Shown: one piece after another, positions 8,659-41,765 of the stretch
Numbering within the stretch: the first letter of the stretch is position 1
Layout of the letters: every line of letters starts with the position of its first letter
From: Balneolales bacterium
GTDB lineage: Bacteria; Bacteroidota; Rhodothermia; Balneolales; Cyclonatronaceae
NCBI GenBank assembly: GCA_022565805.1
Contig: JAIULZ010000021.1
Span: forward strand, 1 to 41,765
Length of the DNA stretch: 41,765 nt
Direction of reading: 5' to 3'
Translations under genes and position numbers: made by a program
The notes under the pieces: model-generated
Database searches by the model: none
What the model was told of the DNA's origin: nothing
Seen by the model: the letters and a program-made list of their open reading frames with translations, nothing else

Positions 8659-9573
8659 ATGAAAACAATAGCCCTTTGCCGGAATACTCTGGCCCTTACT
8701 CTTTTCTCATTTATTTTTCTGCTTACCTCTGGCTGCGATCCCTATCGGCAGGATTCTTATGAAGAGCAGCTTGTAATTTACGGTATGCTAACTGCCGGCG
8801 AACCGTTTTCTCCGATACGCCTTACACGAACAGTTCCATTTAGCGAAGCCTACAGTGAAGAAGCCGCGGCTTTACGAAATATGCATGTTCGCGTTATAGA
8901 AATGGATGAAGACGGTGAGTTTATACGCACCATACAGTACCAGGAGAGTGAACGCGACCCCGGCGTTTATTTTCCCCGCAGCCGTTCCAGCATCGTACAA
9001 GGCAGATTTCGATACCGTGCTGAAGTTCGGCAAGTCGAAGCCGCGGAGCTTCTGTTAAGTGCACAAACCATTGTTCCGGGATCATTCGAACTTGTTGAAA
9101 CCAATGGAAGCACATTTATTTATCAGGGTCCGGAGCAGTACGAAGCAACCTATACCACCAGCTTTTATCCGGGCAGGCAAAATTATTTTATTATTAGCAC
9201 CCGAGCCTTAAATCCGGAGCTGGGAATGACCCCTTTTTACGACAGCATAGCAGAAGAACCCGATGAGTTTATAACCGTTTCATCACCAATTATTAATGAA
9301 CAGAATTACGAGCTTAATCCGGATGGAACCATAACACTGCGTCTGCCTTGGATCTCCGTATCACACTTTGGCATAAGCGCTATATCGGTTTTTGCCATAG
9401 ACACCAACTGGTACGACTATCAGCGCTCATTGGGAGTACAGCTGGGTGGCTCAACCGTATCGCCCGGACAAATAGAAAATCTGCTTTGGAATGTTGAAGG
9501 TGGTATTGGGGTATTTGGGTCAAGAGCGGGAGTACGGTCAGAAGTCACTATTTTAAGCCCACCTATTCCTTAA
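8659..9573 (+). CDS. DUF4249-type lipoprotein, partner of the TonB receptor
   Basis: Predicted lipoprotein of 304 residues with a type II signal peptide ending in LTSGC (Cys26). The mature part begins CDPYRQDSYEEQLVIYGMLTAG, the usual opening of DUF4249 proteins: a short linker, then a beta-strand-rich domain with a LVIYGML-like strand, RLTRTVP, and a mid-region of extracellular-type repeats. Members typically sit directly after a TonB-dependent receptor carrying a regulatory-like domain, as here, and probably act at the cell surface with the barrel. No ligand or catalytic residues are evident. The family assignment rests on length, lipobox and context plus recognised motifs; function is unknown. 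Confidence 0.8.
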   Translation: MKTIALCRNTLALTLFSFIFLLTSGCDPYRQDSYEEQLVIYGMLTAGEPFSPIRLTRTVPFSEAYSEEAAALRNMHVRVIEMDEDGEFIRTIQYQESERDPGVYFPRSRSSIVQGRFRYRAEVRQVEAAELLLSAQTIVPGSFELVETNGSTFIYQGPEQYEATYTTSFYPGRQNYFIISTRALNPELGMTPFYDSIAEEPDEFITVSSPIINEQNYELNPDGTITLRLPWISVSHFGISAISVFAIDTNWYDYQRSLGVQLGGSTVSPGQIENLLWNVEGGIGVFGSRAGVRSEVTILSPPIP

Positions 9574-9599
9574 TTTTGTAACGTATTTTCATTTTTTTT

Positions 9600-11126
9600 A
9601 TGACGAATAGCAAAGCTGTATCTATTGTAATTGGGGCTGTACTGGTAGGCAGCATTATTAAAGCTTTGATTATTCGCTCAGTTTTTGAGCCAACCGGAAT
9701 GCTGCATACCGATTCTTATCAGTATCTCCGGCTTGCCATTTCATGGTTGGAAGCAAGTCCCATGCAAATACACGGCCATACCGAGCTTGTATGGCCACCG
9801 GGGTACCCGGCTGCGATTGCTGCAGTAGCAATGCTTACAAATTTGTCGGTCTTCTGGGCTTCCAAGCTGCTTAACGCCCTCCTGATATTCATTTGCAGCT
9901 CTCTGCTATGGTTTCGGTTTAAAGAAAATACCCTGCCCTTTCTGGCCGTTCTGGGACTTGCACCGATTCTTTTCACATTTTTCTTTAGTCTGTCGGAGGC
10001 TCTTTTCATCACCACTATGCTTTGCCATATTTTGCTGCTCGAAAAAGGCTTGAAATCGGGGCATTCAGGCACATTATTCGCAGCAGGACTTGCCATAGCT
10101 GCACTTTTCCTAGTGCGATATGCAGGCTTGTATGGTTTCCTTGTGAATGGATTTGTAATACTCGGTCTGATCATAACCAGACAAAGCCGAAAAAGCATCG
10201 CTCTGTTACTCGGTACCGTGGTCAGTGGTGCTCTGGCTGGAATTTATATGTACCAAACTCAGAAAATTACGGGATATCTCACTGGCGGTAACCGTACATC
10301 CACTACACAGTCTTTGGCAGAAGGAATGTTTGATCTTCTTAAAGCTTTTGCAGACGATTTAAATCTGCTTCATGTTTTGGGAAATCAGCAACCGGTTTTT
10401 TTCTTCCTTACCCTCATCCTGCAAATTGCAGCAGTTGCTATATTCATCGGCATCATCAGAAAATATCGTCTTCGGTTCAGAATACAATTTTCTGTATTTA
10501 GCGGGCTTTGTTTTTTGAGCGCATTTGTTTATTTCAGCACGGTTGCAATCGTACACGTTCTTTTTGATGTATCCAGTTTTTATTACCGCTTTACGGCACC
10601 GGCCTTATTTTTCATCTTGCTGGGCACAATTGCTTTCATGATGAGCCAGCAGGTACGCATAAAGCAGTATTTCACTTTACTTGCCGTTGGCCTTGCGTTT
10701 ACATCTGTTCTGCTGCACGGCTCCGGCTTTTTCATAAGCTCTGTTTTAACCGAGCAGGTTCCCAGAGGAGAAACAGAGCGTCGGGTGCTTCAATCTTATT
10801 CCGGCATTCCATCACAGAGCGTCTTAATTTTCGGCAGACGCGAACTCTATTATCTGCGACCCGATATCGTTGTTGAGTTTCCCCGCTTTGAACCAGCTTT
10901 CGACCGTACCGAAAGCTGGGAAGACTTCAGCCAGAGATTAGACCGTGACTTTCCCGGCTATCATTTACTTTATATGACGTACAATCCCCAATTTACCGAC
11001 AGGCCCTTTCATCCGAGCATACGCGAATTTATGACTGAGCAGTATGACGGACGTCTCCGGGCCATACGGCTCGAAATGGGAGATACCGCACTAATGCCAT
11101 CATCATACAAATCTGCCCCCGATTGA
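9600..11126 (+). CDS. GT-C-fold membrane glycosyltransferase-like protein (PMT/ArnT type)
   Basis: Polytopic membrane protein of 508 residues with about ten hydrophobic segments up to about residue 385, then a soluble C-terminal part of about 120 residues. The first extracytoplasmic loop contains HTDSYQYLRLA (Asp38) and VWPPGYPAAIA; an acidic residue in this loop followed by a W-P-P-G-Y-P motif is typical of the dolichyl-phosphate-mannose/ArnT-like GT-C superfamily, which use lipid-linked sugar donors. Substrate cannot be deduced. The gene starts 26 nt after the DUF4249 gene, so co-transcription is plausible. However, TAATTTTG at 9571-9578 overlaps the preceding stop and resembles a Bacteroidota -7 element, so a separate promoter is possible. 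Alternative: a non-catalytic hypothetical membrane protein. Confidence 0.7.
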   Translation: MTNSKAVSIVIGAVLVGSIIKALIIRSVFEPTGMLHTDSYQYLRLAISWLEASPMQIHGHTELVWPPGYPAAIAAVAMLTNLSVFWASKLLNALLIFICSSLLWFRFKENTLPFLAVLGLAPILFTFFFSLSEALFITTMLCHILLLEKGLKSGHSGTLFAAGLAIAALFLVRYAGLYGFLVNGFVILGLIITRQSRKSIALLLGTVVSGALAGIYMYQTQKITGYLTGGNRTSTTQSLAEGMFDLLKAFADDLNLLHVLGNQQPVFFFLTLILQIAAVAIFIGIIRKYRLRFRIQFSVFSGLCFLSAFVYFSTVAIVHVLFDVSSFYYRFTAPALFFILLGTIAFMMSQQVRIKQYFTLLAVGLAFTSVLLHGSGFFISSVLTEQVPRGETERRVLQSYSGIPSQSVLIFGRRELYYLRPDIVVEFPRFEPAFDRTESWEDFSQRLDRDFPGYHLLYMTYNPQFTDRPFHPSIREFMTEQYDGRLRAIRLEMGDTALMPSSYKSAPD

Positions 11127-11515
11127 TTAAAATAAAGATAAGCTTGGAATTTGTTCTTCTTAAACCTACCACACTATTTCACTGTAAAAAAAGAAGACAC
11201 CAGCTATTTTGTACTTTTATAGAAGTCAACTTCATCAAAATCTTAAAACCCAGACTTCTTTCCATTTAAAACAGGGTCGATAGTACTTCATCATTTATTT
11301 TACAGCCTGCTCTGCTATTACTGTTTATCCCATTTCAAAGCTTTCTGGCATCTAACCCAAGCTACAGACCGACAACATTTTCGGTTTGTATTTTCGTAAA
11401 AAGCATGTTTATAAAAAAACGATTCAGGAAAAAAGCACTGGTGTTGCGCCATATCCGGCCCACCGCCATTGTAAAGCAAGGGTCCGGCTTTAGAGCATGA
11501 AAAAAAGTGTTACCC
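11127..11515. other. Convergent intergenic region without clear terminator
   Basis: About 390 bases between the ends of the glycosyltransferase gene (plus) and the lipoprotein gene (minus). I see no strong hairpin with a T-tract and no plausible gene. Rho-dependent ending is possible. Confidence 0.4.
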
Positions 11516-38795: not shown

Positions 38796-38834
38796 TCAGA
38801 TGTCAGATGTCAGCTGTCAGCTGTCAGCTGTCAG
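38796..38834. repeat. Heptanucleotide tandem array TCAGMTG x5
   Basis: Five consecutive 7-bp copies: two TCAGATG, three TCAGCTG, then a partial TCAG. The same heptamers recur as one copy (39042-39048) and two copies (39260-39273) between the following 209-bp units, so array and units form one composite structure. Confidence 0.9.
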
Positions 38835-39041
38835 AATTAATGATAAATTCGACACAAATAAAAGCATCCGATTCCTGAGCGGCAGACTTTTCTTAATTGC
38901 AAGGGATTTCCAAAATGTTGATAAGCATCTAAATACCAAGCATGCCCGAATGGATCTCCCATCATTTGGCAACGCCTTAACCGAAGCCCCAAAAGGTTGG
39001 AGCAGAGCGCGCAATCTTGCTATACTAGTAAAGACCCGGGG
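38833..39041. repeat. 209-bp repeat unit, copy 1
   Basis: Begins AGAATTAATG and ends at the GACCCGGGG boundary. It differs from copy 2 at only about two positions (both transitions), indicating recent duplication. It contains small open frames on both strands (65-70 codons), but these show no ribosome site or family resemblance. Confidence 0.9.
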
Positions 39042-39050
39042 TCAGCTGTC

Positions 39051-39259
39051 AGAATTAATGATAAATTCGACACAAATAAAAGCATCCGATTCCTGAGCGG
39101 CAGACTTTTCTTAATTGCAAGGGATTTCCAAAATGTTGATAAGCATCTAAATACCAAGCATGCCCGAATGGATCTCCCATCATTTGGCAACGCCTTAACC
39201 GAAGCCCCAAAAGGTTGGAGCAGGGCGCGCAATCTTGCTACACTAGTAAAGACCCGGGG
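39051..39259. repeat. 209-bp repeat unit, copy 2
   Basis: Nearly identical to copy 1 and the same length. One TCAGCTG heptamer separates the two. Its end includes the palindrome GACCCGGGGTC, which with the following T and C joins into the heptamer array. Confidence 0.9.
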
Positions 39260-39275
39260 TCAGATGTCAGATGTC

Positions 39276-39483
39276 AGAATTAATTATAAAATCGACACAA
39301 ATAAAGGCATCCGATTCCTGAGCGGCAGACTTTTCTTAATTGCAAGGGATTTCCAAAGTGTTGATAAGCATCTAAATACCAAGTATGCCCGAATGGATCT
39401 CCCGTCATTTGGCAACGCCTTAACCGAAGCTCCAAAAAGTTGGAGCAGGGCGCGCAATCTTGCTACGAATTAATCGTAAAATA
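39276..39483. repeat. Repeat unit, copy 3 (3'-truncated) and start of a fourth
   Basis: Core 39276-39466 aligns with copies 1 and 2 but differs at about ten positions, mainly transitions, and lacks the last 18 bases including GACCCGGGG. GAATTAATCGTAAAAT at 39467-39482 resembles a new unit start, suggesting a fourth copy mostly lost. Two TCAGATG heptamers precede it. It is the oldest copy by divergence. Confidence 0.85.
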
Positions 39484-39951: not shown

Positions 39952-41382
39952 ATGTTCCTAAGACATTTTGCCACAATGGGCATTTGGTGCGGTAGCTGGC
40001 TTTTTCCCGCAATGCTGCTATTTATTACAGCCTGCTCTTCAAGCGGCGAAAGCCGTATAGACCGAGGTACATCCCATGCATTCGAAGTAGGACATCCGGA
40101 AGTAAGAGCCCGTGTAACCAGTTTTTTTGATGATGAAGGGCTGCCGGTTTCTGATTTAAATCTGGAGTTGCCGCATCAAAACCTTGTGTTTCGCACCATG
40201 GACGGAAACCGCACTGCAGAAACCGAAATCCGTATTTTGTATCGAAAGGCCGAAACAGGAAACCTGGTAAAGCGCATAAACGAAAATCTAAGTATTCGCG
40301 AAAATGCCAGCGACCCTGTTTTTACCAGTCTGTTTAACCACAGAGCCTATTTAGAGCCAGGCAGATATAATGTTGAGGTTACGGTAACCGATGTATCATC
40401 GCGTAAACCAACTACGGTACAGCTTCAGGTAAATATCCCGGATCAAGAATCCAAGACCGCAGCAATATCCGACATTCGGGTTAAATTGCTTGGGAATGGG
40501 ACAACCAGACCCATAACATCTTATCTTATTCCCGCAGCCAAAGATTCGCTTCGATTTGAGCTTTTCGTAACCCGTAAATCCGAAGATGTGCCTGCCCGGT
40601 TGCGTATGAGGCTAATTGAGTACAATTCCGATACTTCTCCGGCCCGCGCTATGGGCCAACTCCCCGTTTCAAGCGGTAGTATTATATATCGTGGCATCGA
40701 TTACTCCAACCAAACTATACTGGAAGAACAGGAACGCACCCTCGACCGGGAAACAGGACCGGTTTTAATCGAATACCTGCTGCCCAGACCGGACCGCGGC
40801 AACTATCGTATCGAGGTTGAACTAACTACCGATAATGCAGATGGGGAATCGGAAACGTCCACAAGGTTTCGCGAATTCGGTATTGTGAGCAGTAATTTTC
40901 CCAGAGTCCAATCTGTACTCGAAATGGCAGAGCCCCTCGCTTATTTAATGCGTGAACGGGATTTCAGAAATATGATGCGCATAGAAGAACCCGACAGCAT
41001 GCTGCAGGTTGTAGACCGTTTTTGGCTGCAGGACATGACTCCGCGTATGGCCCGAGAACAAATTCAGCGTTTTTATACCCGCGTAGAAGAAGCAAACCGT
41101 CTTTTCTCCGGCTTTAAAGAAGGCTGGAAAACCGATATGGGGCTTGTTTACATATTAATGGGCCCTCCGCTTTATGTTGAAAATAATATGGAAGTCATGA
41201 TCTGGCACTACAGCTATAACCGCATGGATCCACGCACCGTAATCATCTTCGAAAGAACACGCGTAACCGGCAACTCCTGGCCCTTCAACCACTATATTTT
41301 AGTCCGCAACCGCTTCTACCAAGGCATAGAATTAGAAGCCATAAACAACTGGACGAGCGGGAGAATACCGAGAATTAATTGA
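39952..41382 (+). CDS. GWxTD-domain lipoprotein
   Basis: Predicted lipoprotein of 476 residues with signal sequence ending ITACSSS (Cys28). The middle (about 45-330) is beta-rich, like the Ig-type repeats of this family. The C-terminal GWxTD domain (about 350-476) contains GFKEGWKTDMGLVYILMGPP, followed by MIWHYSYNR and NHYILVRNRFYQG, typical for proteins of this kind in the FCB group and Acidobacteria. The domain's function is unknown; it is usually secreted or envelope-bound. The ATG lies behind a weak ribosome site. The gene is enclosed by tandem-repeat arrays on both sides. Confidence 0.85.
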   Translation: MFLRHFATMGIWCGSWLFPAMLLFITACSSSGESRIDRGTSHAFEVGHPEVRARVTSFFDDEGLPVSDLNLELPHQNLVFRTMDGNRTAETEIRILYRKAETGNLVKRINENLSIRENASDPVFTSLFNHRAYLEPGRYNVEVTVTDVSSRKPTTVQLQVNIPDQESKTAAISDIRVKLLGNGTTRPITSYLIPAAKDSLRFELFVTRKSEDVPARLRMRLIEYNSDTSPARAMGQLPVSSGSIIYRGIDYSNQTILEEQERTLDRETGPVLIEYLLPRPDRGNYRIEVELTTDNADGESETSTRFREFGIVSSNFPRVQSVLEMAEPLAYLMRERDFRNMMRIEEPDSMLQVVDRFWLQDMTPRMAREQIQRFYTRVEEANRLFSGFKEGWKTDMGLVYILMGPPLYVENNMEVMIWHYSYNRMDPRTVIIFERTRVTGNSWPFNHYILVRNRFYQGIELEAINNWTSGRIPRIN

Positions 41383-41397
41383 GTTTTTTGTTTTGGA

Positions 41398-41425
41398 TGT
41401 TGAGTGTTGAGTGTTGAGTGTTGAG
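41398..41425. repeat. Heptanucleotide tandem array TGTTGAG x4
   Basis: Four perfect 7-bp copies starting 15 nt past the GWxTD stop codon. Different in sequence from the TCAGMTG array but of the same period. Confidence 0.9.
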
Positions 41426-41450
41426 TGAAAATAACCACCCAAGGAAGTTA

Positions 41451-41550: not shown

Positions 41551-41591
41551 AATCTAGCTGAGTAACTAAAAAACGAACCATTAGTAATTCG

Positions 41592-41640
41592 TTATTGGTT
41601 ATTGGTTATTGGTTATTGGTTATTGGTTATTGGTTATTGC
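41592..41640. repeat. Heptanucleotide tandem array TTATTGG x7
   Basis: Six perfect copies and a seventh ending in C. It ends 40 nt before the start of the helicase frame, so changes in copy number would shift promoter or leader spacing there. Confidence 0.92.
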
Positions 41641-41680
41641 TCATTAATTAAATTCACCTTTCACAATTCACCATTCACAA

Positions 41681-41765
41681 TTGAAACCCACATTTTCCTA
41701 CAAAATCATCCGGAAATTCTTCTCCGCTCAGGGGTGGAAGCCGTTTCCGTATCAGGAGGAGCTTT
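41681..41765 (+). CDS. Ligase-associated DEXH-box helicase, 5' fragment
   Basis: A frame opens after a stop at 41645-41647 and runs off the window. From the TTG at 41681 it encodes 28 residues beginning LKPTFSYKIIRKFF and including AQGWKPFPYQEEL. The G-W-x-P-F-x-x-Q-x-E pattern is the Q-motif-like opening of Lhr-type helicases of the ligase-associated DNA damage response cluster (exonuclease, helicase, phosphoesterase, DNA ligase). No ATG precedes it in frame; TTG (or ATT at 41666) must serve as start. Partners would lie beyond the window. Confidence 0.6.
   Translation, partial: MKPTFSYKIIRKFFSAQGWKPFPYQEEL

Follow-up and report, generated by a model that had tools for sequence, protein, structure and literature searches.

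Three head-to-tail copies of a REP-like hairpin element beside heptamer repeats in a Balneolales genome

The window (the whole 41,765-nt stretch of Balneolales DNA analysed here) holds three head-to-tail copies of a repeat unit between two genes, the array proper occupying positions 38796-39466. Taken as a whole, our data probably reflect a REP-like hairpin of an old family that was amplified locally between TCAG/heptamer direct repeats. Within the repeated unit, a non-coding palindromic element of REP-like type lies shortly 3′ of a TCAG that in many cases is expanded into arrays of 7-bp repeats, and the stretch bounded by TCAG or heptamers would have been duplicated twice by slippage or unequal exchange between these short direct repeats. 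The hairpin perhaps aided duplication by stalling replication, and the number of heptamers could have changed through ordinary slippage.

The array and its orthologous sites

The three copies, a number taken from a draft assembly of 290 contigs representing one genome of the species, align without gaps in a 218-column register (38823-39040, 39041-39258 and 39266-39483), with spacings of 218 and then 225 nt, and TRF delimits the array at 38816-39466 with a score of 1165. The initial annotation had described head-to-tail copies preceded by 5, 1 and 2 heptamers, and both the register alignment and TRF bear this out, since complete TCAGMTG heptamers precede copies 1, 2 and 3 in exactly these numbers and one extra TCAG closes each run. 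On the plus strand, as for all features given here, the run before copy 1 (38796-38834; TRF period 7, score 59) consists of two TCAGATG, three TCAGCTG and the TCAG, and leads into a unit body of 207 nt (38835-39041). A single TCAGCTG with its TCAG (39042-39052) precedes the 207-nt body of copy 2 (39053-39259), and two TCAGATG with TCAG (39260-39277) precede that of copy 3 (39278-39466), which lacks the last 18 bases of the unit.

Between copies 1 and 2 there are 2 differences, both transitions, and their 99% identity includes the 3′ sequence beyond the conserved element. Copy 3 shows 8 differences from copy 2 and 10 from copy 1 (outside the heptamers and up to register position 201). These counts match the roughly two and ten differences first estimated. 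Most of the differences are indeed transitions, although "nearly all" was slightly too strong because copy 3 has transversions at two of the sites (register positions 20 and 26). Copy 3 ceases to match the unit after ...CTTGCTAC (39466). The repeat had been thought to extend to 39483 with copy 3 missing its end; the missing 18 bases are confirmed, but the final 17 bases (GAATTAATCGTAAAATA, 39467-39483) resemble the start of the unit and not its end. This is a weak match in AT-rich sequence (14 of 16 bases, compared by eye) that may represent the stub of a fourth unit. The palindrome noted at the end of the unit, GACCCGGGGTC, is an inverted repeat of 5+5 bases around one base. As regards the terminal inverted repeats and target-site duplications typical of MITEs, no long inverted repeat bounds the unit; a GAATTAAT-like stretch is found at both ends of copy 3, but it also lies within every unit. 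A chance origin of the array is excluded.

The flanking genes, named by eye, are a minus-strand gene that reads as a pyruvate kinase and a plus-strand lipoprotein-like gene, and are divergent. The same pair is adjacent in G001, G002, G003, G004, G005 and G009, among others, and the DNA between them measures 1368 bp in the window versus about 230-510 bp in the relatives. Because neither the array nor the heptamers are found in the orthologous intergenic regions of these six related species, comparison of the sequences indicates that the array was most likely gained in the window's own lineage. The G009 region contains one 21-bp stretch that is weakly similar to the first conserved block of the element (E 0.14).

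A dispersed family with a paired core

The unit was initially taken to be non-coding and possibly repeated elsewhere, and dispersed copies do occur in its own genome and in relatives. A DNA search with the unit gave 18 matches in its own genome at 69-100% identity, and a covariance model matched 23 sites there (G000), 11 in the congener G003 and 6 in the congener G001, with no match in three other congeners searched. These counts are minima, because the first-look filter used in the genome search scores only part of the candidates. An exact pattern search of 84,980 species genomes recovered this type only in two Balneolia metagenome genomes. The unit is thus not confined to this locus, nor did it match a known IS, gene or Rfam family, the two outcomes that would have spoken against the original proposal.

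The copies, which are not independent of one another, are mostly intergenic according to an ORF scan, most of them between co-directional genes, and pairs of copies from the window's genus have a median identity of 53%. Their alignment reveals conservation in two blocks, one around AAATAAAAACATCnnATTCCTGAGCGGCAG and one around AGCATGCCCGAAGGATCTCCCTTCATTTGGCAACGCnnTnATCGAAG, and variable sequence in between. Weak model hits led to a sister set (TGTCATTTCGAGGGTA ... TACCCGAGAAATCTCCC) in G006, which belongs to another genus of the same family, with at least 37 exact-pattern copies against 0 for a reversed control pattern. We regard these copies as an old dispersed family of the window's genus with a diverged sister in the other genus.

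RNAalifold pairs the two conserved blocks (UCCU-GA-G-C-GGCA with UGCC-C-GA-AGGA), so that the core consists of an outer stem, a GA/AG internal motif, an inner stem and a loop of about 60 nt, the stem comprising nine standard pairs and two G-A appositions. In copy 1 the core lies at 38871-38955, with arms at 38871-38884 and 38943-38955 (covariance-model match 38852-38988, E 7e-31); in copy 2 at 39089-39173, with arms at 39089-39102 and 39161-39173 (match 39070-39206, E 7e-31); and in copy 3 at 39314-39398, with arms at 39314-39327 and 39386-39398 (match 39295-39431, E 9.8e-29). The loop is 58 nt in the window copies. Core length is 84-87 nt in the window's genus and 83-86 nt in G006, and the loops share little sequence. 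Four stem pairs have changed on both sides between the two sets, and the GA/AG motif is unchanged, as are the G-C pairs that follow it. This covariation supports the stem on condition that the sets are homologous, which their matching length and layout suggest; it depends on that homology because the stem hardly varies within one genus. The core of each window copy, folded alone, closes this stem around the internal loop, and 150-nt pieces of the unit, folded on both strands, were no more stable than shuffles. The core is predicted to fold into a hairpin, either within a single strand of DNA or in RNA.

Several other arrangements were seen among the copies. On contigs 3, 6 and 58 of G003 (L010, L013 and L054) elements are paired tail-to-tail with their TCTCC ends facing, and the G006 copies have a similar inverted partner about 50 bp downstream. 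One G003 copy (L015, about 1500-1580) has another kind of REP-like sequence (CCCTGAGCGTAGTCGAATGG) breaking up its 3′ block, possibly a nested insertion. A second tandem module of 112-116 bp (AAAGCCCCATAAATTTAAAGCTACC...GTGCTACCTAT), in about three to four copies, lies directly downstream of element copies at L026 (1249-1604) and L016 (1167-1798).

Heptamers and the origin of the array

In the interval 30-60 bp ahead of the stem no tetramer is more frequent than TCAG, which 16 of 30 copies have there; the expectation from shuffles is 2.8, and the highest count among 500 of them was 8. In the window's genus, period-7 arrays (12-of-14 criterion, within 90 bp of the element) lie upstream of 9/30 copies and downstream of 1/30; in G006 the figures are 4/28 and 0/28. 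The resulting 5′ bias (13/58 against 1/58 combined) has a Fisher p of 0.012 in the window's genus, 0.11 in G006, which is not significant alone, and 0.001 for both together. The same scan revealed no other prominent period in the element flanks. The proposed check of whether heptamers flank each copy thus finds them on the 5′ side of several other copies, but a clear array is present upstream of less than a third of those in the genus. The heptamers themselves vary from copy to copy (TCAGATG, GGTCAGA, AATCAGT, AAAGCTN, GTGAATT), and short-loop REPs from other genomes have 7-bp arrays upstream in 2/27 cases and downstream in 0/27. The heptamers are not simply part of the element, since a survey of 12 x 20 kb and of the window itself turned up solitary arrays as well, among them two in the window (41398-41427 and 41587-41639) and one with which another contig begins. 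Close to the contig end, 7-bp arrays of TGTTGAG, ATTGGTT and AATTCAC occupy 41379-41427, 41587-41639 and 41651-41682 of the window, with no element recognised beside them.

Amplification by duplication, as first proposed, is also seen at other loci: contig 102 has two head-to-tail pairs, with spacings of 370 and 191, and contig 189 has one with a spacing of 182. Second copies in these pairs start after TCAG or GTTAG that follows short purine-rich or mixed sequence, and clean heptamers are not always present at the junctions. Among all pairs, the three with the highest similarity are tandem neighbours, and the closest match between dispersed copies has 83% identity. The most economical interpretation is amplification through recombination or slippage at short direct repeats, with a dispersal that looks old. 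The suggestion that heptamers may have acted as recombination points agrees with the junctions, since that between GACCCGGGG and TCAGCTGTCAG fits a putative exchange at TCAG or at the heptamers. The idea of a mobile repeat fared less well: recent mobility is unsupported because the closest pairs are tandem, dispersed copies reach at most about 83% identity and no cognate transposase was found. On the reading of local amplification, the locus shows how DNA between divergent genes can grow when repeats are amplified locally.

It is unlikely that the element is a miniature mobile element moved in trans by a Y1 (HUH) or other transposase, with TCAG as its insertion target, TCAG-containing heptamers as preferred sites and arrays produced by repeated insertion into neighbouring heptamers. 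TCAG is conserved 5′ of the element, the hairpin is subterminal, the array was gained relative to relatives and the window's genome has IS200-type Y1 genes. However, neither the Y1 genes present in some of these genomes nor any RAYT gene has the element at its flanks, G003 has 11 copies yet neither kind of gene, dispersed pairs never exceed the identity given above, and the near-identity of copies 1 and 2 extends 3′ beyond the conserved element, which fits duplication of the locus. No RAYT-type gene was found in G000, G003 or G006, and no such hairpin lies alongside the Y1 genes, save that in G006 an unrelated copy is located about 600 bp from one. RAYT and IS200 were rejected as the cognate enzyme, being neither element-flanked nor correlated in presence with the element. 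Elsewhere, two RAYT-type genes on contig 165 of G004 (9567-10226 and 10550-11209; L081 and L084) score identically, are spaced by about 980 bp and seem to stem from a recent tandem duplication.

A selected structured non-coding RNA or a transcript-processing signal (e.g. for mRNA end protection), with tandem copies as a by-product, would suit the conserved blocks, the constant core length, the paired stem and the prevalence of co-directional neighbours. We nevertheless find it distinctly improbable, given that an Rfam search of the unit returned nothing at gathering or E-value thresholds, that orthologous sites have no copies, and that the window copies lie between divergent genes, where no upstream transcript would enter. 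An assembly artefact, in which the assembler made the number or tandem order of the units, is quite improbable as well. The assembly is fragmented and several contigs, the window's own included, end near element copies or heptamers, but the copies are distinguished by individual differences and heptamer counts, and tandem pairs are found again elsewhere, so that more than one copy must be real.

Very doubtful, in our view, is that the heptamers belong to the element's own copying, as in a mobile hairpin whose TCAG end would be lengthened in 7-bp steps on copying or insertion. By analogy with retroposon tails, this would leave a one-sided tail of varying heptamers and, if true, would define a new class of bacterial mobile repeat. 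That the 158-codon open frame at 38997-39473 is a real gene is scarcely credible, even though it stays open across copies 2 and 3, and protein coding was rejected because no Pfam family scored above cut-off and dispersed copies differ by single-base indels (e.g. CGAAGGATC versus CGAATGGATC) that break any shared reading frame. Derivation from a phage or plasmid was also set aside, since searches gave no match and the pattern turned up in no viral contig, as were an integron attC (no R-box sequences, by eye) and a hammerhead-like RNA (no hammerhead core, by eye).

Relation to known repeat systems

The initial annotation knew of no element with this structure, but the core of the unit has REP-type anatomy and the structure is therefore not without relatives. 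Di Nocera et al. (2013, PMC3733652) characterise CGTC-tagged REPs by their tag, an 8-9-bp stem that opens with AT, a 4-5-nt loop and the lack of a dedicated transposase. Like them, the element is an intergenic palindrome in many copies, with a stem of nine standard pairs that begins with AT, a tandem GA motif, inverted-orientation dimers (in G003 and G006) and no dedicated transposase, and the G006 set, which reads TGTCATTTC, has a TGTC tag and an ATCTC-type end (TGTC...TCTC). Unlike them, window-type copies read CATCNNATTCCT, without a CGTC, TGTC or CCTC tag beside the stem, and the window's set has conserved flanking blocks on both sides; the loop of about 60 nt in both sets is more than ten times the published length, and head-to-tail duplication is negligible in CGTC families (PMC3733652). 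The phylum-sample genome G250 has the same ends as the G006 set, with loops of about 5 and about 27 nt. Since the window's set has no tag and neither set is short-looped, we call the element REP-like and do not file it as a member.

With GTAG-tagged REPs and their RAYT genes the element shares a hairpin near a short unpaired motif (GGGAG before the stem on the minus strand), but it has no GTAG tag, and RAYT genes are absent from G000 and G003 and not element-flanked where present. Miniature derivatives of the IS200/IS605 type have a subterminal hairpin and a fixed short motif on the 5′ side. In general terms the element shares both features, but its copies have no conserved second hairpin at the 3′ side and no parental element was found.

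Intergenic heptamer arrays are also known, as TAACTGA repeats (MacGregor 2015, PMC4679880) and GGGAATC repeats (Rehm et al. 2015, PMC4692102). The window array likewise consists of tandem 7-bp direct repeats in intergenic DNA that are missing at the same gene pair in close relatives, and the known arrays also occur in some Bacteroidetes. Several heptamer sequences are involved here, in contrast, with a one-sided bias beside a hairpin, a link that the accessible parts of the two papers do not report. A literature search, with most subscription journals outside its reach, found no long-loop REP adjoining heptamers.

The element is thus of a known kind, the bacterial palindromic repeats, and what is new is an unusually long loop of nearly fixed length, which places this REP-like family outside the classification of Di Nocera et al. 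(PMC3733652). The one-sided heptamer link joins two poorly explained kinds of bacterial intergenic repeat and, if it holds in more genomes, would make the origin of heptamer arrays testable, as slippage at a hairpin versus an insertion target.
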